Translations under genes and position numbers: made by a program
Notes under the pieces: generated by a model
The model's input: only the letters and a program-made list of their open reading frames with translations
What the model was told of the DNA's origin: nothing
The model's database searches: none
Part shown: positions 27,647-58,384 of the stretch, in pieces
How the letters are laid out: every line of letters starts with the position of its first letter
How positions within the stretch are numbered: the first letter of the stretch is position 1
Assembly (NCBI GenBank): GCA_027858345.1
Contig: JAQICX010000217.1
Coordinates: forward strand, 1 to 59,673
From: Kiritimatiellia bacterium
GTDB lineage: Bacteria > Verrucomicrobiota > Kiritimatiellia > JAQICX01
Length of the DNA: 59,673 nt
Direction of reading: 5' to 3'

Positions 27647-28269
27647 AATTCCTCTTTTTTCAGTTAGACTGTTAGTCCGTTAGAAAGTTAGACAGAGACA
27701 ATCGCCGGCGTCAGCCGGCACATAGTTCCCACCTGTCGCGCCGTAGTCCCGAAGGGCAAAGGCGGATCTTTCCCATAGTTCCCATGAGCCAGAAGCCAAC
27801 CAATTTTTATGATAACGAGGACGTTATCGCGCCCAAACTTGCAAATCAACATTGTCTTGCAAGACAGGGAGCGACGATGTCCCCATCGTCATTTTCTTCC
27901 GTCGGTCAACTACAGGAGGCATCCCTGCAAAGCAACACTAAACTGCACATTTAACACTGTAGCCGAGGTCAGCAGACCTCGAACATAATAAATACTGCCA
28001 GAGGCATTCCACAATTCGTAATTCTTAATTATTAATTCGTAATTGATTTGCCCTTACTAACTCTCTAACTATCTAACGGTCTAACTGTCTAACCGTCTAA
28101 CTGTCCAACTATCACCCCATACACCCCTAGTTCGCAAAAACTCCTCCTCTTTAAGGGGAGGTGGCTAGCGAAGCTAGACGGAGGGGTTGTTCTCAATCTT
28201 TACCTTAAACTCAATCTGCGAGCAAAGCGAGCTCTCAGCCTTTATCTTAACCTTAACCTCAATGAAAGC
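27647..28269. repeat. 623-bp repeat mosaic upstream of the LacI gene
   Basis: No gene. In order: four octamers TTAGACTG, TTAGTCCG, TTAGAAAG, TTAGACAG (27664-27695) and a following ~50 bp shared with 30898-30980; the word TCGCGCCGTAGTCCCGAAG near 27737; a stand-alone gamma palindrome (27809-27892); a stand-alone beta palindrome (27899-27985); seven octamers of ACTGTCTA type (28060-28115); and words with CTCCTCCTCTTTAAGGGGAG near 28140. Confidence 0.8.
28060..28115 (+). repeat. Octamer array, 7 units of ACNGTCTA
   Basis: Exact 8-bp units: ACTCTCTA, ACTATCTA, ACGGTCTA, ACTGTCTA, ACCGTCTA, ACTGTCCA, ACTATCAC. The same family occurs at 51946-52033 and, inverted, at 27664 and 30898. Confidence 0.9.
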
Positions 28270-30875: not shown

Positions 30876-31110
30876 CTTTCCTTTATTTATTTATCAGTTA
30901 GACTGTTAGTCCGTTAGAAAGTTAGACAGGAGCAATCACCGGTGTCAGCCGGCACATAGTTCCCATCTTTCCCATAATTCCCGTACGGACAGACCTATGC
31001 ATCTGCCCTTTTCTATAATAAATACCTGCGGAGCTATTCCAACCTTAACCTTAATCTTAGCCTTAACCTGCTGGCTCCGCCAGCCCTCAAACTTTACCTT
31101 AACCTTAATC
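30876..31110. repeat. Repeat mosaic between Gfo/Idh and the second isomerase
   Basis: Four inverted octamers (30898-30929) identical to those at 27664-27695 plus the shared downstream words GTCAGCCGGCACATAGTTCC. Then the phrase TACCTGCGGAGCTATTCCAA (31022-31041) with period-6 CCTTAA units, as at 11839. No gene. Confidence 0.75.
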
Positions 31111-47740: not shown

Positions 47741-48045
47741 GTTAATTAGCTAAATTCGCTGACGAAGACTCTTCTTCTTTGCGTCCCTTTGCGTTCTTTG
47801 CGGTTAATACTCTTTCTTTTTGCCTGCTCTTTAATCTGTGTAAATCATCTTAATCTGCGGATAAAACATTTTCCGTGTTTTCAGTGTATTCCGTGGTTAA
47901 AAATCTTCTTTCTCTGCGTTCTCTGTGCCTCTGCGCGAGAAAATTCTTCTCTTTTTTCCTTGCGACTTTGCACCTTTGCGTTAAAACTCTCTTCTTAATC
48001 TGCGTTCATCTGCGTCATCTGCGGATAAAAATTCTTTGGTTGCAA
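47741..48045. repeat. Phrase-repeat block upstream of the ECF sigma gene
   Basis: Internal quasi-tandem words: CTTTGCGTCC, CTTTGCGTT, CTTTGCGGTTAA; TTCCGTGTTTTCAGTGTATT; CTCTGCGTTCTCTGTGCCTC; CTGCGTTCATCTGCGTCATC then TGCGGATAAA. Open frames here are not genes. A short inverted counterpart lies at 58389-58470. Confidence 0.75.
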
Positions 48046-48072
48046 AAAAAATGAAAAAAAGTTATCATTTTG

Positions 48073-48100
48073 GGAACAAAAGGAAAACTCAAAACGTCTT
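48073..48100 (+). promoter_or_regulatory. ECF-type promoter of the sigma factor operon
   Basis: GGAAC at 48073-48077, 17 bp, CGTCTT at 48095-48100, matching the general ECF pattern (GGAAC, 16-17 bp, CGTC). It is the only such site seen between the left inverted repeat and the sigma gene, and implies autoregulation. Transcription would begin about 14 bases before the ATG at 48120. Confidence 0.75.
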
Positions 48101-48119
48101 AGGGGCAAATTGATCAATA

Positions 48120-48734
48120 ATGAACTGGGAACACAACATTGTGAATTCACAAACGACAACTGATATATCCATAGGAATGGGGGCTGCAGAGCTTCTCAAG
48201 GATATTTATGGCAAGCGTCATTTGGGCGATGATGATATGCGACAAATAATTCGCGCATATGAATCATGCCTACTTCGCTATGCTCAGAGGTTTGTAAATG
48301 ATCATAACAGTGCAGAGGATGTTGTACAGGACACATTTATTAAACTTTTTAGGTCGTGGAGTTCCATAAAGGATAGAGCAACAAACTTGAAAAGTTGGCT
48401 CTACAGAGTGGCGCACAACCAGGCAGTTGATCTTATTAGAAAAGAGCAGAACTATCGCAAGGCAATGGAAAACCATGGAGAAGACTTGCTAAACAAGGAA
48501 GACAATAGTTCTGACGAGGCAAGAAAACAAAAGAAGAAAGAGCTTGTCTTAAAGCAAGTGGACAAATTGAGTCCGGCAGAAAAAGAGGTGCTGCTGCTCC
48601 GACTTGAAGAAGAATTGAGTTATAAAGAAATTAGTGAAATCACAAACCGAGCAGTTGGAAACGTTGGAAAGCTCTTACATAGAGCAGTTGGGAAGATTAC
48701 AAGAGAATTAAAAACACAGGGGATAATACAATGA
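48120..48734 (+). CDS. ECF-family RNA polymerase sigma factor
   Basis: 204 residues. Region 2 is at about 45-110 (YAQRFVNDHNSAEDVVQDTF, and LKSWLYRVAHNQAVDLIRKE). A charged linker follows, then region 4 at about 140-200 (LSPAEKEVLLLRLEEELSYK and AVGNVGKLLHRAVGKITREL). The N-terminal 35 residues extend beyond the usual ECF start, and a second in-frame ATG lies at 48177, so the true start is uncertain. It directs RNA polymerase to GGAAC/CGTC-type promoters; one lies right upstream. The stop overlaps the anti-sigma start (ATGA), the classical arrangement of an ECF sigma and its anti-sigma factor. Confidence 0.92.
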   Translation: MNWEHNIVNSQTTTDISIGMGAAELLKDIYGKRHLGDDDMRQIIRAYESCLLRYAQRFVNDHNSAEDVVQDTFIKLFRSWSSIKDRATNLKSWLYRVAHNQAVDLIRKEQNYRKAMENHGEDLLNKEDNSSDEARKQKKKELVLKQVDKLSPAEKEVLLLRLEEELSYKEISEITNRAVGNVGKLLHRAVGKITRELKTQGIIQ

Positions 48735-51724
48735 AGAAATGTGAAGATATACAATTTTTGTTGACTCTTTATGCTCTTGATAATCTAGGGGGCGTATCAA
48801 AACAGGAAGTTTCAAAACACCTTGAAGAGTGCAAGAAGTGCCAAAAAGAATTTGAAGAAATAAAACAGGGGCTAACAGTAATTAATGATGTATTGAAAGA
48901 TACAAGCGTTGACGACCAGCACCTTAGCGAAGAGCGCTATGATGCAATTATTAGAGCATCAAAAATTAAGAAATCCACAGGGCTTGGTTGGATAACAAAA
49001 TATCGACCAGCACTGGGAATTGCAGCAAGCACACTTGTTGTCTTTGGTCTGACCTGGGCAATTGTTTCAAGCATGAAGGCTCCAAAATTAATGAAACTTG
49101 AAGAAAACGTTGGTGCTGTGAGTATGAGAGGCGGGTATGAAGACTCTTTAGAAAGCGCAGATGAAGTTGCTATGCTTGAAGACCCCCAAGCCATCGATGT
49201 TGTTTTTGACTCGTCCGTCGATATGCAAAGTCCAGATAAAGAGTTTGTACTAGATGAAAGCTTACTTTATGACGATGACGGCGTTGATTACAGTGATGCT
49301 ACTGCTCCTGCATACCAAGTTGAGAAAAAGGTTGCATTTAAGAAATCCGCACTAACTCAAAACAACAACAGAAAGGCTAAACCAGCAAAGGCAATGAGCA
49401 GCTTGCCAGAACCTACACAACCTAACTATGGTTATGTGGATGCGGATATTAAAGGCAATCTAAAAAGAGATAACAAACCTCAAAGTGCAGCAGTTAAAGA
49501 GATCGATGCAGTAGCCATAACTACATCACCTATCATTCAAAATAAAACATACTCCAGTCGATCTCGTGGTGACCGGGCACAATTAATTTCGCCAGAAAGC
49601 CCTGAACCTGTAGAGATAGAGAAAAAAACACTTGCGAAAGCTGAAGGTAACTCCCTAAAAAATAAAAAGAATCTACGTGAAGAGAATAAATCAGACAAAC
49701 AAGTTCAAACTTCGCAAACTGTAGCAAGAGAAAGTCTATCAAGACGTTCAAAAGAGGTTAGAAAAAAGGAAGTTTGGAAAGATAGTGATTCATTCAGTTC
49801 AACAGAGGGTCAAAACAAAAATGTATCCTTTGGTGTAAGTATTTCTGGAAAAACAACTGGAGGCCTCATATCAGAACAACATACGGAGTTGTCGAAGTCA
49901 TCTACAGCCGACCATGAGCAAAAGCCAATTTATGAAATGCAAGAAGCTGCAGCAGTTGAAGCGGGCAATGACAAAATTGTTCTTTATGATAATGCAGAAA
50001 AGACAGCTGAGCCAATCAGTTACTTTAGCAGGGATGAAGCAAAGGATGGACTTGATAAGAAGTCTTTAAAACTTGCAAGCAAACCGGAAATCAAAAATCA
50101 GGCGGAACAACTCCAGGATAAGAGTGAAGTTTTAGATGATTTTGAAGATGCTCCGACAGATGCAGAAACAGAAACTGTAATGACAGAGAACATCACTCCT
50201 GCAAATCAACCTTTAGAAGGTGCGCAATACGAAAAAATGCGAGAAAAAGAAGAAATTTGTGAAGAAATTGAAGTAGTATCTGAGGTTTTGGCGGACGAAA
50301 AAGATGTTGGTGACGAAATTGTTACCCGTCAATCAATGATCCAGGCAACTGGTGTGAATCCATATGTCCAGACGGTTGAAAATGCATTCTCAACATTCTC
50401 AATTGATGTGGATACAGCATCGTATAACCTATCTAGAAGATACATGCTGGCTGGACTTCTGCCACCACCAGAAATGGTAAGAACAGAAGAATTTGTGAAC
50501 TCATTCGATTATCACTACGTTCCTGCAGCAAGTCAGACTTTCAGAATTTACACAGACATTGCTCCATCGCCATTTGCTCATGGACAATATATGATGAGAA
50601 TTGGAGTCAAAGGCAAACGACTCGGACGTGAAGAGATGAAACAGGCAGTGCTGACATTTCTTGTTGACACATCAGGCAGCATGAAACGTGCAGACAGAAT
50701 TGGCTTAATCAAACAATCACTGAAATTCCTGCTGGAACAGCTAGGCGAAAACGACAAAGTTGCAATTGTTCAATATGGAACAAAGGCAAGACTTGTTCTA
50801 GAACACACAGAGGTCAAGAATATTGACACAATATTAAATGCAATTGATTCTCTACAATGTGGTGGAGCAACAGATCTTGAAGATGGAATGTTGCTTGCAT
50901 ACAAAGTTGCGGCCGATGGATACGTGAACAATGCAGAAAACAAAGTATTGCTGCTTTCTGACGGGGTTGCAAACATTGGGGAAGGCATCGCAGAGAGCAT
51001 ACTTGAAAAAATCAGACCATACATTAAACAGGGAATCACCTGTTCAATTTATGGATTTGGCATTGGCAACTATGATGATGCAATGCTCGAGAAACTTGCA
51101 AACAAAGGCAATGGCATATATGCATACGTCGGCAATCTGACTGATGCAAAACAGATTTTCTCGGAAGAGTCTGCATCGACATTGAACTTAATTGCATCAG
51201 ATGTCAAAATTCAGGTTGAGTTTTCACCAAGTATCGTCAAACAGTATCGTCAGCTTGGATATGAAAACAGATTGCTTACACAGCAGGACTTTAGAAATGA
51301 TACTGTTGATGCTGGAGAAATCGGAAGTGGACAAGCGGTAACAGCTCTTTACGAAATGGAACTTGAAGAAAACAAGCCAATGGATCCATGGCGCAACAGT
51401 GCTGCGGGCTTGCACTCTGGTGACGTTCTGGCAATTGTTAGAGTCAGATACAAAGATATCAACACTAAGGAAATTATCGAAATTGAACAGAAAGTTCGTA
51501 CAAGAGACATCAAAAATTCATTTGAAGGAATGCCAGTTGATTATCGTCTGGCAGTGGGTGTAGCTGAATTTGCGGAACAACTACGTGGAAGTCCATACGC
51601 AAATAATAGTTTCAGAGATATCTCTAAGGTTATTGATCCGGTAGCCCAGGAACTACCTCTCGACAAAAAAGTTCAGCAACTTAAGAATTTCATTCAGTAT
51701 GCACCGGGCTGGCAGAGCCAGTAG
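48731..51724 (+). CDS. Anti-sigma factor fused to YfbK-type von Willebrand A protein
   Basis: 997 residues. The N-terminal zinc-binding anti-sigma domain shows His30-x3-Cys34-x2-Cys37 (KHLEECKKCQ). One membrane helix lies at about 92-113 (LGIAASTLVVFGLTWAIVSS). A 400-residue charged, low-complexity stretch follows, then the YfbK module: N-terminal part near 535-620 (NAFSTFSIDVDTASYNLSRR), vWA domain with MIDAS DTSGS near 646 plus LSDGVANIGEG, and the YfbK C-terminal region (IQVEFSPSIVKQYRQLGYEN). The cytosolic end should hold the sigma factor and the external vWA end could sense a ligand or partner. The 4-bp overlap with the sigma gene implies stoichiometric translation. Confidence 0.9.
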   Translation: MKKCEDIQFLLTLYALDNLGGVSKQEVSKHLEECKKCQKEFEEIKQGLTVINDVLKDTSVDDQHLSEERYDAIIRASKIKKSTGLGWITKYRPALGIAASTLVVFGLTWAIVSSMKAPKLMKLEENVGAVSMRGGYEDSLESADEVAMLEDPQAIDVVFDSSVDMQSPDKEFVLDESLLYDDDGVDYSDATAPAYQVEKKVAFKKSALTQNNNRKAKPAKAMSSLPEPTQPNYGYVDADIKGNLKRDNKPQSAAVKEIDAVAITTSPIIQNKTYSSRSRGDRAQLISPESPEPVEIEKKTLAKAEGNSLKNKKNLREENKSDKQVQTSQTVARESLSRRSKEVRKKEVWKDSDSFSSTEGQNKNVSFGVSISGKTTGGLISEQHTELSKSSTADHEQKPIYEMQEAAAVEAGNDKIVLYDNAEKTAEPISYFSRDEAKDGLDKKSLKLASKPEIKNQAEQLQDKSEVLDDFEDAPTDAETETVMTENITPANQPLEGAQYEKMREKEEICEEIEVVSEVLADEKDVGDEIVTRQSMIQATGVNPYVQTVENAFSTFSIDVDTASYNLSRRYMLAGLLPPPEMVRTEEFVNSFDYHYVPAASQTFRIYTDIAPSPFAHGQYMMRIGVKGKRLGREEMKQAVLTFLVDTSGSMKRADRIGLIKQSLKFLLEQLGENDKVAIVQYGTKARLVLEHTEVKNIDTILNAIDSLQCGGATDLEDGMLLAYKVAADGYVNNAENKVLLLSDGVANIGEGIAESILEKIRPYIKQGITCSIYGFGIGNYDDAMLEKLANKGNGIYAYVGNLTDAKQIFSEESASTLNLIASDVKIQVEFSPSIVKQYRQLGYENRLLTQQDFRNDTVDAGEIGSGQAVTALYEMELEENKPMDPWRNSAAGLHSGDVLAIVRVRYKDINTKEIIEIEQKVRTRDIKNSFEGMPVDYRLAVGVAEFAEQLRGSPYANNSFRDISKVIDPVAQELPLDKKVQQLKNFIQYAPGWQSQ

Positions 51725-52054
51725 GCTGGCGTTGCCAGCAGGTAAAGATTAAGATTGAGGTTAAGGTTAAGAAAATACCCCTCCCACCTCGCAGGCGAGG
51801 TGACCTCCCCTAAAAGCGGGAGGAGTTTTGGCGGACTTGCGGTTGTCGTGTAGTCCAGTTGTCATGTAGTCCAGTTGCTTGATGAAATCAACGCTTAACA
51901 ATTTTTTAGTCTAGCGTCTTGAGTCATGAGTCGTGAGTCAAAGCAACGGTCTAACGGACTAACTGTCTAACAGTCTAACTGATAAACAGTCTAACCGTCC
52001 AACTGTCTAACAATCTAACGGACTAACTGTCTAACTAAATTAAAAGGAAAAACC
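51725..52054. other. Leader of the giant gene: repeat words and octamer array
   Basis: 51725-51945 contains TAGGCTGGCGTTGCCAGCAG, period-6 words (TTAAGATTGAGGTTAAGG), CCTCGCAGGCGAGGTGACC and GTAGTCCAGTTG words. No promoter or ECF site was seen. A ribosome site AAAAGGA precedes the ATG at 52055. The octamer array is listed separately. Confidence 0.6.
51946..52033 (+). repeat. Octamer array, 11 units of ACNGTCTA, in the leader of the giant gene
   Basis: 88 bp, exactly 11 x 8: ACGGTCTA, ACGGACTA, ACTGTCTA, ACAGTCTA, ACTGATAA, ACAGTCTA, ACCGTCCA, ACTGTCTA, ACAATCTA, ACGGACTA, ACTGTCTA. It ends 21 bp before the start codon. Confidence 0.92.
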
Positions 52055-55000
52055 ATGAAGAAAATAATAATGATGATGGTGCTGGCAATGATTGGCACAA
52101 GAATGAATGCACAGGTTGTTGAAGATTTTACACTAACAGGTGAAATTGCTGGTGAGAACATTTCATTTGATATGAGCTTTCAGGTTTCGGATATAGATCG
52201 AGATGGCAGCCTTCAGTTGATTAGTGGTGATGTTGCTTATCTTAGCGGCAATTTTCCTAAACACACAAAACTTGAGAGAAATCAAACTGGTTTCTCCCTG
52301 CTGTTTGAAAGAGGAGTGAGACTTGGACGACCTGTTGATATACAATTTTCCTTTGCAAGCCGTGCCAAGCATGATGGTGACCACCGTGTAACAGAATTTG
52401 AGATTCCTGGAGCGACCGTGAGAAACATTGATGTCATTTGCGATCGTTCTGATTTGGATATTGAGTTTCCAGGAGCACTGAACATTCAAAGAACGACAAA
52501 TGCACAACAGAAAACTGTTGTGAAAGCAAATATCGGTTCAGGTAACAAGTTTCAAGTTCGCTGGAAGCCTCAGTTAAAACAGCTGACAACAGAATTGGCA
52601 GCATCTTGCGATGTGAACACAATTGCAGTTGCAAGCGTTGGTGTTTTGCAGCTAAACAATATCTTCACATTTAATGTTATACAGGGAGAAATTCAGGAAT
52701 TCAAACTAGATCTGCCAGACGACATAAGTATTACTCGAGTCACGGGCAATGACATTCAGGACTGGCAACTTTTGAAAGAAGATAATAAATCCCTGCTGCA
52801 GGTTCGTCTTTCACATCCTTGTGAAGATCGCTATACACTGATTGTTGAATCAGAACAAATCTTATCAACCCTTCCATGTGACACATCACTTCCAATCATA
52901 AAACCACGTGGTATGATCAGAACAGGTGGTTTCTTATTGCTTGGAACAGATAATGCACTGAAACTCAATATAGAAAAGGCTGGCGGTTTAACCCAAATAG
53001 ACCAAAGTGGATTCATTGTGGACAAACTCATGCAGCAATATATGCCAAAACGCAAATTATATGCATATCAATATGCAAATCTTCCATTCAATCTTGACGT
53101 AAAAATTGATAACATTGTGACAACAATGGATGTTGAAAACTATAGCATTGTTCGCTACACAGAGAGTGAAACAACAATGGATATATCTCTTGAATTAGAT
53201 GTCAAAGATGCACCTGTTTCATCCATTACAGCAAAAATACCAGATAGCGAAGGTTGGATTGTAACATCAATCACTGGACAAAAAGTTGCAGAGATGGACT
53301 CGGATGTCAGAAAAGAAAAAAATGGTCATATTATACATATTCCATTTTCAACTCCACTACTTGGAACAAGCATTGTTAAGGTCAAGCTTGAAAGATCAAC
53401 AGAGTCTGGCGAAGAGTTCAGCATACCAACTTTAAAAATTGAAGATACAAGAAACGAGAGTGGTTATCTAATTGTTGCGGCAGAAAAAGGGGTTCAGCTA
53501 AAGACAGTCAAAGCAGATAATTTAAGAGAGATACATGCTGGATCAAGCCCTATTAATGTTGTTGATGCACAAAAAGCATATCGCTTCAAAGCAGCAGACT
53601 GGGCAATTAGCCTTCTGGCTGACAAAACAAAATCAGCAGTTCACTGCGAAGCATTTCATCTGATCTCTTTAGGTGAAGGGGTTTCATATAGCAGTATTGC
53701 ATTCACATATCACATTGGTGGTTCCCCTCTGCAAGAGCTATCACTAAAAATACCTAAGAATATTGAAGAATTTGAAGTCACAGGTTCAGGCGTTGATTCA
53801 TGGAAAAAAGAGGGAGATCTTTGTAAGGTTAAACTTCAATCAAGAATCATGGGCGACTACACACTGCTGGTGACATACGACGGACAATTTGACTACCGCG
53901 GTGGAAAGATAGAAATTGGCGGAATTGAGTCTGTAGACACAGAAAGTGAAGTTGGCTACCTTGTTGTCTCAAGTGCAGCAGCACTACAGATCTCTAATAC
54001 CGGAACACTCCCCTCTTCTGTAATTGATATCAGTCGTGAAGAACTACCTGCTGAATATGCTGCTCCAGTTACAGCACCAATTCTTAAAGCATACAAATAC
54101 ACTCAGAAACCTCACGATTTTCAGATTGATATAACGCCTCTTAAAACAGAAATGCTGCTCACACAGCTTGCTGATTACATTAGTTTAAACACAAAAATCG
54201 GAAGTCGTGGCGGAGTCGAAACAACTGTTACATACTTCTTGAAAAATACATCAAGACAATTTCTCATTATCAAACCTCCTGCTGGCGCAAAACCATGGCA
54301 CGCAAGAGAGAAAATGACTGATGGAACATTCAAAAACATCATCATGCAGGAAAAAGACGGCAACTGGCTGCTTCCTGTTGATCGACCAAGGGACCCGGAT
54401 CAAATCATCACTGTTCAGGTTACCTATGCACAGACGGTTAAAAAACCTGGTCTGTTAAGTTCAGGAATAAAGGGCATTAAACTTGAAGCACCACAACTAC
54501 CTGAAACAGATGCTGTTTTTGCCGGATGGCAAATTTCCGTTCCTGAAGAATATGCAGTTTCATTAAAATCAGGCAACATGTCAGACGGCTCCAACCTTCC
54601 GGGTGGGTTATATGGCACATTTATTAAATGCAGAAGAATCTTATATGCATTTAATTCTCGCTACTACACAATTAACAAGGCAATGAAGAGCGGCATTGGT
54701 GAACCAAAAACCATTAACCTGACCAGAACAGTCAATATTGCCGATGGAATACCACCGACAGTCAGTTTATATGTTGTGCCAAACTGGATGGGTGGATCCG
54801 GCTCATTTCTTGATTTGCTGATATGGTCAATCTTTGGCTTTATTGCACTAGTTTTTGGAATCTTTGCAAAAAGAAAAATCATAATAGCATTTGGAACAGC
54901 TGCAATTCTAATTGGTATATCTGAGTCATCCTTGGGTCGCTCAATTGCTGCCGCACTTATTATGATTGCCATATTAACCGTCATCATTAAAATTGCATTG

Positions 55001-58000
55001 ATGTTGCTGAAAAAAAGAAAAAAATCAAAGAAGAAACGCAGTAAGAAACGTAACAAAAAAGCATCTAACAAAATAGAAACAGAAGAAGAGTTCTTTGATG
55101 ATCTTGATATCATTGATAAACCATCTGATAAAGATGGTTATATTTCAACAAAATATCTACTCGTCATCACTAGTGCACTCGTTATACTTTCAACAGCAAT
55201 TGCATCTTCGGCAAAAGAGCAGCAGATGCCTCAACAACAAAAACCACTACCTCAGACTGTTATTGATGATGTTAAATTTGACTTGACCGTTTCAAAGAAA
55301 ACAACTGAAGAAGAACCAAGCATCACTGCAAACATCAGATATCAGTTTGAGCTTGAAGACGAAGAGAACATCAGACTCTTTTCAGACAAATACGTCATCA
55401 CTGGTTACAAATCAAACTCAAAACATGTAAGAATTGAACTAATCAACGGCATATATACAGCCATATTACCGGACGATGGCAAATATACAATAGATGTTGA
55501 ATGTCATATCCCAGTTAAATCTGAAAATGAACTCAACAAAACAGTGCTCGAACTGCCAGATAATATGCACAATCAAGTCACAATTACAATTCCGCAAAAG
55601 AATCTCAACATCAAAGCCGACCAGGCAGTGCTGTTTGAGTCAAAAGAAAGTGGTGACACTTCTGTTGCAAATGCTGTTTTTGGCAACGAAAAAGAGGTGA
55701 CATTGAGCTGGCAGCCAAGACAACGCATTAGAGAACTTGAAAAAACGGTTATATTTGCAGAAGTCAATTCAATGGCAACTGTAAAGTCGGGTGTCCTTGA
55801 AGTGCTTCACAATGTTGAATGTCTAATTGTACAAGGAGAATGCCAATCTCTTGAACTTCAGATTCCAGCGGGTATGAATGTCACATCTGTGACAGCGAAG
55901 GATCTTGCAATATGGCGTTTTGATCCCATAAGCAGAAAACTTGATACCGTTTTCAGTAAGCCACAAACCGGCACACAAACTGTTTTGATTAACACACAGA
56001 TTGCTGTTGATGGCTTACCATACGATGTCACATTTGGCGTACCTGTTCTAAACAATGTTGATCGACAAAGAGGTTTCGTTGCCATAATATCCGCTCCAAT
56101 TGTTCAGACAAGAGTCATAAAAAATATATCTCTAAGCCCAATGAACAAAGATGATTTCGCATTTAGTAAATTTCAGGCATGCCAATCACCAGATAATTTC
56201 ATGATGGCAAAGACATTTAGATATCATGAGGCTGATAAAGTAAGCATGACAATTAACGCAGAAAAAGTTTTGCCGGAAATTCGTGCAATTGAAACAAGCA
56301 GCATGTCTATTGCTGATGACAAGTTTGAAATATCCAGCAGAATTGAATTAAAAATAACCAAAGCAGGTATCTTTGAAATAGACCTGTTAATACCACAAAG
56401 CTTTGAGCTTGAAACCTTGACAGGAAAAGATGTCAGCCATTGGGATGATATGAAAAGTACAAACGGCATGCGTCAGGTTAAAGTAAATTTTTCTAAACGT
56501 CTTGAAGGAGATACCACTGTTAACTTGCTGGCAACTCGCATGATTAACGAGATTGAAAAAACTTTCTATATTCCTAAAATTGAAATTCAGGAAGCACGCA
56601 AACATACAGGCAGAGTAACTGTCATTGCAGAAAAAGGTGTTCGCCTGAACATTTTGGAACACGAAGGTGTTGACATCAGAAAAGCCAAAGAGGTTGAAGT
56701 TTATCAAAGTGGAGCACTGGTATTCGATATCCTTAGACAAAACTGGACAGTTGAGCTGCAAAGCGAAGTTCTCAATCCAATCATTAAACCAGAAGTTCTT
56801 CAATGGGTTGACCTGGAAGAAGGAATACTGCAATACAATGCATACATAAAATACCAAATTGAAAATGCAGGTGTAAAACAGTTCCAGATTAAATGTCCGG
56901 ACACAGAAGCATCACTGACTATCACAGGACGAGGAATTGCAAGTGTCAACAAACTCAAAGGTACAAATGGAATCTGGCAGGTAAACCTAAATGGAAAAGT
57001 AGAGAACGACTACAACCTCAGAGCAACTTGGCAAATTCCATATGATAACGAGGAAAAACGAGTGAACATTGAGTCTCTCCAAACGCTGAACACATACGAC
57101 CAACGTGGATACCTTGTTATTACATGCGATGGAAGAATCCAAGTTGAATCAGAGATAGAGCCAGTTGGACTGAAACTTGAAGATGCAAGAAATATTCCAT
57201 CAAACTTTGGCTCACAGGATCTGTCCGATGCAATTCTCTGCTATCGTACCCTACGCACAAAATTCAACCTGCCTCTAATAGTGACAAGAAATGATGCGGC
57301 AAAGGTATTGCCGGCACAGATTGATAGTGTGACACTATTTTCTGTTCTTTCAGAGGATCAAAAAGCAATAACTTCACTAGAAGCCAAAATACAGGTTGGA
57401 GATCTGAACTTTCTTAAAGTAAAACTACCGGGAGATGGCAAACTTTGGACCGTGCTGGTAGACGAACAGGAAGTCTCCGTCTCACGCGAAGGCGAATTTT
57501 ACTGCATTCCTCTGGAACAGATCAGCAGCGATGAACCAATGAATGTATCCTTCTCCTACTCAGGAAAATTTGAAATCAACAAACGTGGTTACAAAATTGA
57601 TGTTCCAACATTCCAGGAGTTGCCGATGCGCGATATCACATGGAACCTCTACATTGACAGCGATGCCAAATGCTATGACTTTGGGGGCACAATGGAGTAT
57701 GTGAAAACAGACAAAAACAACTACTACTTTGACTCTAGAAACTACATATCAAAAAATCAGGAAAAACAGAAAGCAAACATCTTGAAAGCTCAGGAAATCC
57801 TGAACAAGGGTGAAAAGATGATGCAGCAAGGCGACTCAACAGGTGCACGAAAAGCATTTGAACAGGCATACAACTATTCACTAGGTAAAAAAGCTCTGAA
57901 CGAAGACGCAAGAGTTCAACTGAGAAATATTTCCAAACAGCAGATCAAAGTTGGTCTATTCAACAGACGTCAAGCTGTGCGATATGACAACAACATTGCC

Positions 58001-58384
58001 GTCGAACCAGCTCAACAGGAGTGGCAGCAGAAAATCAGTCAGCAGGCTGCAAACAATGCCGACCTGAACTTCACCGAAGAACAGGTTCGCCAAATTGAAG
58101 CAGAACTCGCTGATGAGAACGATGCTTTTGATCTTGTTGCCGACAAGATGGTTGACCAGCAGGCAGCCGCGTCAGCTGTTATAAAAGGGCTACAGGTAAC
58201 ACTGCCTACACATGGCAAACATATGCAGTTCAGAAGAGACCTGCAGATCAATCCTAAAAGCCAGTTGACTGTGGAATTCAAAATTCAGAAAATCAACATT
58301 GGTGGTTATCTATTGAAAATCATTGCACTGCTGATATTGACAGCCTGCATATTTGCCATCTCACTCATCTTCAGAAAAAAATAA
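52055..58384 (+). CDS. Giant two-part beta-rich membrane protein of unknown function
   Basis: 2109 residues. A signal peptide (MKKIIMMMVLAMIGTRMNA) is followed by beta-rich modules to about 900, hydrophobic helices at about 913-982, then a lysine-rich stretch (985-1007). A second signal-peptide-like segment at 1028-1052 (YLLVITSALVILSTAIASSA) precedes another beta-rich half. The halves match: VIQGEIQEFKLDLPDDISIT with VQGECQSLELQIPAGMNVTS, and SGYLIVAAEKGVQLK with TGRVTVIAEKGVRLN. Near the C-terminus come a TPR-like helical patch (about 1900-1950) and a final membrane helix (2084-2105). Start supported by AAAAGGA. Probably an envelope effector or receptor of the sigma/anti-sigma pair upstream. 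No function recognised. Confidence 0.8.
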   Translation: MKKIIMMMVLAMIGTRMNAQVVEDFTLTGEIAGENISFDMSFQVSDIDRDGSLQLISGDVAYLSGNFPKHTKLERNQTGFSLLFERGVRLGRPVDIQFSFASRAKHDGDHRVTEFEIPGATVRNIDVICDRSDLDIEFPGALNIQRTTNAQQKTVVKANIGSGNKFQVRWKPQLKQLTTELAASCDVNTIAVASVGVLQLNNIFTFNVIQGEIQEFKLDLPDDISITRVTGNDIQDWQLLKEDNKSLLQVRLSHPCEDRYTLIVESEQILSTLPCDTSLPIIKPRGMIRTGGFLLLGTDNALKLNIEKAGGLTQIDQSGFIVDKLMQQYMPKRKLYAYQYANLPFNLDVKIDNIVTTMDVENYSIVRYTESETTMDISLELDVKDAPVSSITAKIPDSEGWIVTSITGQKVAEMDSDVRKEKNGHIIHIPFSTPLLGTSIVKVKLERSTESGEEFSIPTLKIEDTRNESGYLIVAAEKGVQLKTVKADNLREIHAGSSPINVVDAQKAYRFKAADWAISLLADKTKSAVHCEAFHLISLGEGVSYSSIAFTYHIGGSPLQELSLKIPKNIEEFEVTGSGVDSWKKEGDLCKVKLQSRIMGDYTLLVTYDGQFDYRGGKIEIGGIESVDTESEVGYLVVSSAAALQISNTGTLPSSVIDISREELPAEYAAPVTAPILKAYKYTQKPHDFQIDITPLKTEMLLTQLADYISLNTKIGSRGGVETTVTYFLKNTSRQFLIIKPPAGAKPWHAREKMTDGTFKNIIMQEKDGNWLLPVDRPRDPDQIITVQVTYAQTVKKPGLLSSGIKGIKLEAPQLPETDAVFAGWQISVPEEYAVSLKSGNMSDGSNLPGGLYGTFIKCRRILYAFNSRYYTINKAMKSGIGEPKTINLTRTVNIADGIPPTVSLYVVPNWMGGSGSFLDLLIWSIFGFIALVFGIFAKRKIIIAFGTAAILIGISESSLGRSIAAALIMIAILTVIIKIALMLLKKRKKSKKKRSKKRNKKASNKIETEEEFFDDLDIIDKPSDKDGYISTKYLLVITSALVILSTAIASSAKEQQMPQQQKPLPQTVIDDVKFDLTVSKKTTEEEPSITANIRYQFELEDEENIRLFSDKYVITGYKSNSKHVRIELINGIYTAILPDDGKYTIDVECHIPVKSENELNKTVLELPDNMHNQVTITIPQKNLNIKADQAVLFESKESGDTSVANAVFGNEKEVTLSWQPRQRIRELEKTVIFAEVNSMATVKSGVLEVLHNVECLIVQGECQSLELQIPAGMNVTSVTAKDLAIWRFDPISRKLDTVFSKPQTGTQTVLINTQIAVDGLPYDVTFGVPVLNNVDRQRGFVAIISAPIVQTRVIKNISLSPMNKDDFAFSKFQACQSPDNFMMAKTFRYHEADKVSMTINAEKVLPEIRAIETSSMSIADDKFEISSRIELKITKAGIFEIDLLIPQSFELETLTGKDVSHWDDMKSTNGMRQVKVNFSKRLEGDTTVNLLATRMINEIEKTFYIPKIEIQEARKHTGRVTVIAEKGVRLNILEHEGVDIRKAKEVEVYQSGALVFDILRQNWTVELQSEVLNPIIKPEVLQWVDLEEGILQYNAYIKYQIENAGVKQFQIKCPDTEASLTITGRGIASVNKLKGTNGIWQVNLNGKVENDYNLRATWQIPYDNEEKRVNIESLQTLNTYDQRGYLVITCDGRIQVESEIEPVGLKLEDARNIPSNFGSQDLSDAILCYRTLRTKFNLPLIVTRNDAAKVLPAQIDSVTLFSVLSEDQKAITSLEAKIQVGDLNFLKVKLPGDGKLWTVLVDEQEVSVSREGEFYCIPLEQISSDEPMNVSFSYSGKFEINKRGYKIDVPTFQELPMRDITWNLYIDSDAKCYDFGGTMEYVKTDKNNYYFDSRNYISKNQEKQKANILKAQEILNKGEKMMQQGDSTGARKAFEQAYNYSLGKKALNEDARVQLRNISKQQIKVGLFNRRQAVRYDNNIAVEPAQQEWQQKISQQAANNADLNFTEEQVRQIEAELADENDAFDLVADKMVDQQAAASAVIKGLQVTLPTHGKHMQFRRDLQINPKSQLTVEFKIQKINIGGYLLKIIALLILTACIFAISLIFRKK

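Follow-up and report, generated by a model that had tools for sequence, protein, structure and literature searches.

The window, by which we mean the whole 59,673-nucleotide stretch of DNA analysed here, contains an operon of three genes on the forward strand, encoding an ECF sigma factor, a predicted anti-sigma factor that carries a VWA/YfbK module, and a giant protein. A promoter motif lies directly in front of the sigma gene. The features are as follows.

48073-48077, forward strand: GGAAC, the -35 element, read directly; positions -35 to -31 in SigW/RpoE numbering.
48095-48102, forward strand: the -10 element, CGTC (48095-48098) extended to CGTCTTAG, read directly; CGT(A/C)TnAG in many relatives.
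48101-48105, forward strand: AGGGG, a Shine-Dalgarno (SD)-like string in the -10 flank or discriminator, upstream of the predicted transcription start and 14 nt before the ATG at 48120.
48106-48107, forward strand: predicted transcription start, about 6-7 nt past the -10 hexamer, in agreement with CGTATnAGnnnTGAAA in many relatives.
48107-48119, forward strand: predicted 5' leader of 13 nt for ATG 48120, without an SD by duplex energy computation.
48120-48734, forward strand: ECF sigma factor gene, 204 aa (Pfam Sigma70_r2, 8.5e-19; r4_2, 2.2e-13).
48177, forward strand: alternative ATG start of the sigma gene, giving 185 aa.
48660-48662, forward strand: codon of N181, a recognition-helix residue equivalent to SigW T168 (HMMER alignment) that covaries with base -34 in the class.
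48681-48683, forward strand: codon of R188, equivalent by alignment to SigW R175 (G-35 contact).
48731-51724, forward strand: anti-sigma factor gene, 997 aa, with zf-HC2, a membrane-type segment, a long linker and VWA/YfbK (Pfam zf-HC2, 3.9e-06; VWA, 3.5e-20; YfbK_C, 9.1e-42).
52055-58384, forward strand: giant exported or membrane protein, 2109 aa, the third operon gene, without GGAAC-N15-18-CGTC in front.

The product of the first gene belongs to the ECF superfamily, scoring 100.4 bits against TIGR02937 (curated cutoff 42.9). Its Sigma70_r2 (residues 44-110) and r4_2 (141-192) domains are separated by 30 residues, and ECF group IV sigma factors are characterized by sigma2 and sigma4 domains only, with a linker of under 50 residues (PMC8103513, in excerpt). 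It falls below the cutoffs of two narrower families, TIGR02989 (Sig-70_gvs1; 68.3 bits, cutoff 124.55) and TIGR02952 (BldN family; 104.8 bits, cutoff 206.45). The closest solved sigma factor by sequence is SigW of Bacillus subtilis (5wuq, 1.1e-11).

The start codon of the second gene overlaps the sigma stop codon by 4 nt, and the zf-HC2 domain at the beginning of its product marks it as a co-encoded anti-sigma factor. The zinc finger has the form HxxxCxxC at the N-terminus, the membrane-type segment was judged by eye, and the VWA/YfbK module contains a DTSGS motif (of the DxSxS type). We found no paper on VWA-fused anti-sigma factors among the titles and abstract openings of the open literature, a search that lay outside the main ECF reclassification paper and from which we claim no absence from print; the excerpt of PMC7406223 makes no mention of VWA. 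The giant protein matched no Pfam or NCBIfam family at E 0.001, and a galectin assignment was rejected (best E of 0.059 in a PDB profile search, not credible). It has homologs at E <=1e-10 in 71 of 345 class genomes and is 32-40% identical over its length to 12 of those in the class; in some relatives its N- and C-terminal halves are weakly similar to each other, as if duplicated. Just before the giant gene, at 51945-52036, lie 8- and 24-base tandem repeats (AACTGTCT...), which the arrays CTAACTGT / CAGTTAGA at 28057-28110 and 30895-30929 resemble. The intergenic stretch before the promoter (47775-48023) likewise contains short repeated phrases, TTCTTTGCG, TTTTCCGTG and ATCTGCGTTC.

All the elements named in the preliminary description (GGAAC, a 17-bp spacer, CGTC, AGGGG and the two ATGs at 48120 and 48177) lie where it had placed them, and the 17-nt spacer can be read directly. 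The motif combines AAC in the -35 element with CGT in the -10 element, the combination that distinguishes autoregulated ECF promoters (PMC8103513, in excerpt). GGAAC-N15-18-CGTC has a single match in the whole window, in front of sigma; the earlier remark that the motif is missing before the giant gene is thus borne out. The bare motif, taken alone, is no better than chance: shuffled windows contained a mean of 0.44 matches each, and 40 of 100 shuffles had at least one. A weight matrix built from 24 relatives ranked the site only 19th when all positions of the window were scored on both strands, which weighs against any strong claim resting on the matrix by itself. The significance of the promoter comes from its place and its conservation, not from the bare pattern.

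The nearest relatives of the genome among those compared share only its class, in which 94 of 345 genomes have a sigma match at E <=1e-28. We took 40 same-class regions, 35 in which sigma and the giant gene share a contig, in most cases within 8 kb of each other, and five for sigma alone. Sigma was present in 40/40 and the start of a downstream giant homolog in 35/40. In 29 of the 40 regions a single ORF behind sigma combined zinc finger and VWA, and five more had a VWA ORF in which no finger was recognised. One locus (L143) has finger and VWA as two ORFs, another (L134) has no VWA gene behind sigma in the fetched region, and in 4/40 the stretch was too short or showed the finger alone. Two loci have additional genes: L149 (G124) has a single sigma gene with two tandem zf-HC2/VWA anti-sigma fusions behind it, and L143 (G002) has a second sigma/zf-HC2 pair about 3 kb upstream of its sigma-VWA-giant operon.

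A motif of the same register precedes nearly all of these orthologous sigma genes. [GCA]AA-N18-CGT occurs 60-170 nt upstream of the conserved sigma region in 37 of the 40 same-class loci, with other spacings from 11 to 24 found in 0-12 loci each, and 500 shuffles gave a mean of 1.86 loci and a maximum of 7; the first base was widened to G, C or A only after the relatives' sequences had been inspected. The stricter GAA-N18-CGT is present in the 300 nt before the conserved region in 26 of 41 loci (the window included) and 16 of 23 families, compared with 0-11 of the 41 loci at other spacings from 8 to 29 and with a mean of 2.6 and a maximum of 8 in shuffles. One of the 26, L155 (the sole f32 locus), has its match at -240, away from the usual place. 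GAA-N18-CGT was also found in 16 of 28 other sigma homologs, picked by sequence alone from 57 genomes.

The preliminary description had called the site a textbook ECF promoter. That it is an ECF promoter before sigma is supported, with a register kept in 37/40 relatives, but it is no textbook example, since GGAAC is unusual in its own family. The commonest family form is T-T-G-A-A-G-A ... C-G-T-(A/C)-T-n-A-G (TGAAG), and some families have C-A-A-A-G. Across five genomes of a single genus, TGAAG-N17-CGT(A/C)T(C/T)A had 10 matches, compared with 4 for the reversed control, and five of the 10 precede the sigma gene, one per genome.

Three of the 40 loci (L132, L134 and L156) have no [GCA]AA-N18-CGT before sigma. 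In L132 and L134, both of family f42, there is no clear promoter before sigma, and the giant gene is preceded by GAAG-N17-CGTCT at a distance of about 100 and 188 nt; the promoter of these two loci may have moved there. A loose match to the motif before the giant gene was found in 4/35 relatives, two of them these f42 loci.

The same operon is found beyond the class. Among 387 genomes drawn from the phylum, 65 had a match to the giant protein at E <=1e-20. Of these, 39 lie outside the class, and loci from 20 of the 39 (L216-L235) were taken. There was a sigma match in 17/20 regions, and sigma plus VWA lay upstream of the giant gene in 16/20. Leaving out L219, in which the sigma match was partial, gave 16 out-of-class sigma loci. 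None of them has [GCA]AA-N18-CGT, whose one match was in the dropped L219, and allowing any first base with N18 and (C/T)GTC gave two matches, L217 and L222. In contrast, a shifted form, xAA-N17-(C/T)GTC, occurs in 14/16, with other spacings in 0-6 loci and a mean of 1.0 and a maximum of 5 in shuffles, although the pattern was written from these very sequences and its count describes rather than tests; within the class it occurs in 1/40. The out-of-class boxes are TAA/CAA or TGTC variants, with an AA-to-(C/T)GTC spacing of 17 rather than the 18 of the class. This pattern suggests that the promoter is older than the class and that the spacer changed by one base.

Within the class, the promoter and the sigma factor change together. 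Of 163 alignment columns, all of which were scanned, residue 181 was the sole one to separate GAA from AAA/CAA promoters without exception in the 38 in-class operons that have the motif, those of 37 relatives and that of the window; the second-best column fits 37/38. N or S at this position goes with G (25 operons), Y or C with A (11) and T with C (2). The covarying base is -34 in SigW numbering, the nucleotide that T168 and T171 touch in the structure of SigW with DNA, where G-35 is contacted by R175 (PMC6713349, in excerpt). Among the 38, only the window sigma has R at the place of SigW R175 (R188), and its promoter carries G-35; the L129 promoter also has G-35, with H188 in its sigma. The covariation is what we observe that bears, indirectly, on activation by the operon's own sigma factor, and it rests on three base changes on the tree, which allows 1-2 independent pairs. 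A universal residue-base code is rejected: of the 14 out-of-class loci having a motif, 12 combine N with TAA or CAA, as judged by eye.

In the whole genome (4,033,302 bases in 256 contigs, 90.6% complete), GGAAC-N16-17-CGTC had 23 matches, compared with 39 for the reversed control pattern, which rules out reading a genome-wide regulon from the simple motif. The preliminary description had proposed this search and had named a lack of enrichment upstream of co-regulated genes as a refutation; the simple motif does lack enrichment genome-wide, but we take this to indicate a narrow regulon and not a false promoter. Nineteen of the 23 lie inside an ORF on either strand, the minimum ORF length being 80 aa for the 14 forward matches and 100 aa for the 9 reverse ones. 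Four lie outside ORFs (C8, C52, C127 and the window); the window match has an ORF start within 50 nt downstream, and the C8 match also precedes a gene. A family-style motif, KGAAS-N17-CGTMTHA, gave 11 matches compared with 17 for its control. A regulon of the size of those of RpoE or SigW was not detected with these strict motifs, which would miss weaker sites.

The C8 match (G000:C8:11849-11879) is a near-copy of the window site, GGGAACAAA-N12-AACGTCTAAG. It lies 36 nt (from the C of CGT to the ATG) before a gene for an NHL-repeat membrane protein; two DUF4139-like proteins come next, of which the first is below the Pfam cutoff (region L181:5861-9553). Of 34 flanking bases, 18 agree between the two sites, a level reached by 0.13% of 20,000 positions picked at random in the window; the comparison took in ten other sites altogether, and the next best agreement was 14. 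C8 is the only other exact match in the genome to an 18-base motif that was written from this very pair, and with up to 3 mismatches that motif had 3 matches, compared with 8 for the control. None of the 29 NHL protein homologs examined, out of 64 matches in other genomes, has the motif. Judging from these comparisons, the C8 site may be a local, lineage-specific second target. Elsewhere on contig C8, L181:2865-3666 is open in several frames and translates as short-peptide repeats.

Transcription is expected to start about 6-7 nt after the -10 hexamer, and CGT(A/C)TnAGnnnTGAAA is common to many relatives. The start is therefore predicted at 48106-48107, and the proposal that the transcript begins at about 48106 and excludes AGGGG is supported as a prediction. 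We computed SD pairing with a generic anti-SD tail, and took the relatives' leaders to begin at base 13, counted from the C of CGT. The anti-SD duplex energy is -5.6 kcal/mol with AGGGG and +0.6 without it. In 34 of 37 relatives the first in-frame start follows CGT at 28-46 nt (a leader of 16-34 nt), in the others at 15, 25 and 55 nt, and 32 of the 37 have SD pairing of -5 kcal/mol or better within the leader. In the window, the C of CGTC is 25 nt from ATG 48120 and 82 nt from ATG 48177. The transcript had been called nearly leaderless; the leader would indeed be short, but a transcript with 13 nt, itself a predicted length, would not be leaderless. The odd feature of this predicted leader is its missing ribosome site rather than its shortness.

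For the translation of sigma, the two starts considered at the outset are upheld as the candidates. An in-frame TGA at 48111-48113 means that there is no start upstream of 48120, and the in-frame ATG and GTG codons before the conserved region are ATG 48120, GTG 48141 and ATG 48177. Initiation at ATG 48120, the first possible start past that stop codon, on a 13-nt leader without an SD, is in our view somewhat the likelier reading. Its distance from CGTC is near the range of the relatives (L120, for example, has 28 nt), but its leader pairs at +0.6 kcal/mol where most relatives have an SD, and the codons of 48123-48176 score as intergenic (2% of coding pieces score as low and 48% of intergenic pieces as high), although 2 of 22 window genes are equally low-scoring at their own start. 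Initiation at ATG 48177, with a 70-nt leader (48107-48176) and a sigma of 185 aa, is a less probable reading that nevertheless deserves serious weight. The relatives' first starts lie mostly at query residues 21-25, adjoining M20, and the codon score is 0.59 after 48177 and -0.10 before it. However, the leader would be 70 nt, whereas in the 37 relatives a leader reaching to the first possible start does not exceed 43 nt (later starts being possible there), and AGGA directly adjoins this ATG, which leaves too little space for it to be a good SD (-3.3 kcal/mol). Distance speaks for ATG 48120, protein length and codon score for ATG 48177; we lean slightly to 48120 as the probable start.

Based on place, register and covariation, we consider it highly probable that 48073-48102 is the sigma factor's own, autoregulatory promoter. 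It is unlikely that sigma is instead driven mainly by a housekeeping promoter upstream, which would give a longer leader that includes AGGGG. A weak sigma70-like sequence with a 9/12 match (TTGCAA-17-TATCAT, 48040-48068) is present, and ECF operons with several promoters are known, for example rpoE (PMC8103513, in excerpt); but the scanned region has 18 such matches compared with a shuffle mean of 13.4 (sd 4.6), which is chance level, and AGGGG would remain 14 nt from the ATG. That the motif is a chance match and no ECF promoter at all, as the shuffled windows and its lack of enrichment in the genome might suggest, is very improbable against a register kept far beyond the shuffle maximum of 7 and in-class covariation with a contact residue.

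We postulate that the autoregulatory promoter would work as follows. The membrane-bound zinc-finger anti-sigma factor, with its VWA/YfbK module on the predicted outer side, would release sigma in response to a signal, and RNA polymerase with the released sigma would start at about 48106-48107. The transcript would cover the sigma and anti-sigma genes and probably the giant gene, so that sigma would activate its own synthesis while the same RNA encodes its inhibitor, a case of positive autoregulation. The very short leader without an SD would probably make translation of sigma weak, whether it begins at ATG 48120 without SD help or at ATG 48177. Beyond this, we offer as a speculation, and one that we think doubtful, that the operon might form a closed circuit throughout the phylum, in which sigma would transcribe essentially itself, the VWA anti-sigma factor and a giant envelope protein, the VWA module would sense the giant protein, and the boxes and their spacing would drift with the sigma4 helix from class to class.

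The analysis turns a guess from a single sequence into a testable, conserved promoter, and provides rules for the -35 and -10 boxes of a sigma family from a little-studied group. Targets can now be searched for with the right motif, which in most relatives is TGAAG or CAAAG and not GGAAC. It also marks out a widespread operon, the largest product of which matches no Pfam, NCBIfam or (credibly) PDB family. Finally, a family in which promoter and sigma change together is a natural data set for rules of promoter specificity.

RsiW, the partner of SigW, is a membrane anti-sigma factor with a zinc-finger-type cytoplasmic end. The operon described here resembles SigW-RsiW of Bacillus subtilis in having a membrane anti-sigma factor with a zinc-finger-type end, but differs in that this protein has a YfbK/VWA module of about 450 aa and that the next gene encodes a giant protein for which no family was found. 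The sigma factor has a significant match (7.1e-19) to TIGR02989 (Sig-70_gvs1), known from Rhodopirellula/Verrucomicrobium, while falling below its cutoff. With leaderless mRNAs, for which 171 start points are described in Sinorhizobium meliloti (PMC3616915, in excerpt), the predicted transcript shares the lack of a usable SD before the start codon; theirs begin at the first base of the AUG, whereas here about 13 nt are predicted before the ATG.

It is common for ECF operons to be autoregulated from AAC/CGT promoters (PMC8103513 and PMC3817407, both in excerpt). The window promoter resembles the autoregulated promoters of the RpoE/SigW type in that its two boxes, GGAAC and CGTC, directly precede an ECF sigma gene with an anti-sigma gene behind it, and in that the residue covarying with base -34, residue 181, is aligned with a contact residue of SigW. 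Unlike them, the family to which it belongs has mostly TGAAG or CAAAG, with AA and CGT spaced by 18 within the class and by 17 beyond it, strict motifs detected no sizeable regulon, and the leader in the window lacks an SD. We conclude that this conserved promoter is real and most likely adds to the known AAC/CGT autoregulated kind, with an ordinary mechanism and an unusual, predicted short leader without an SD.
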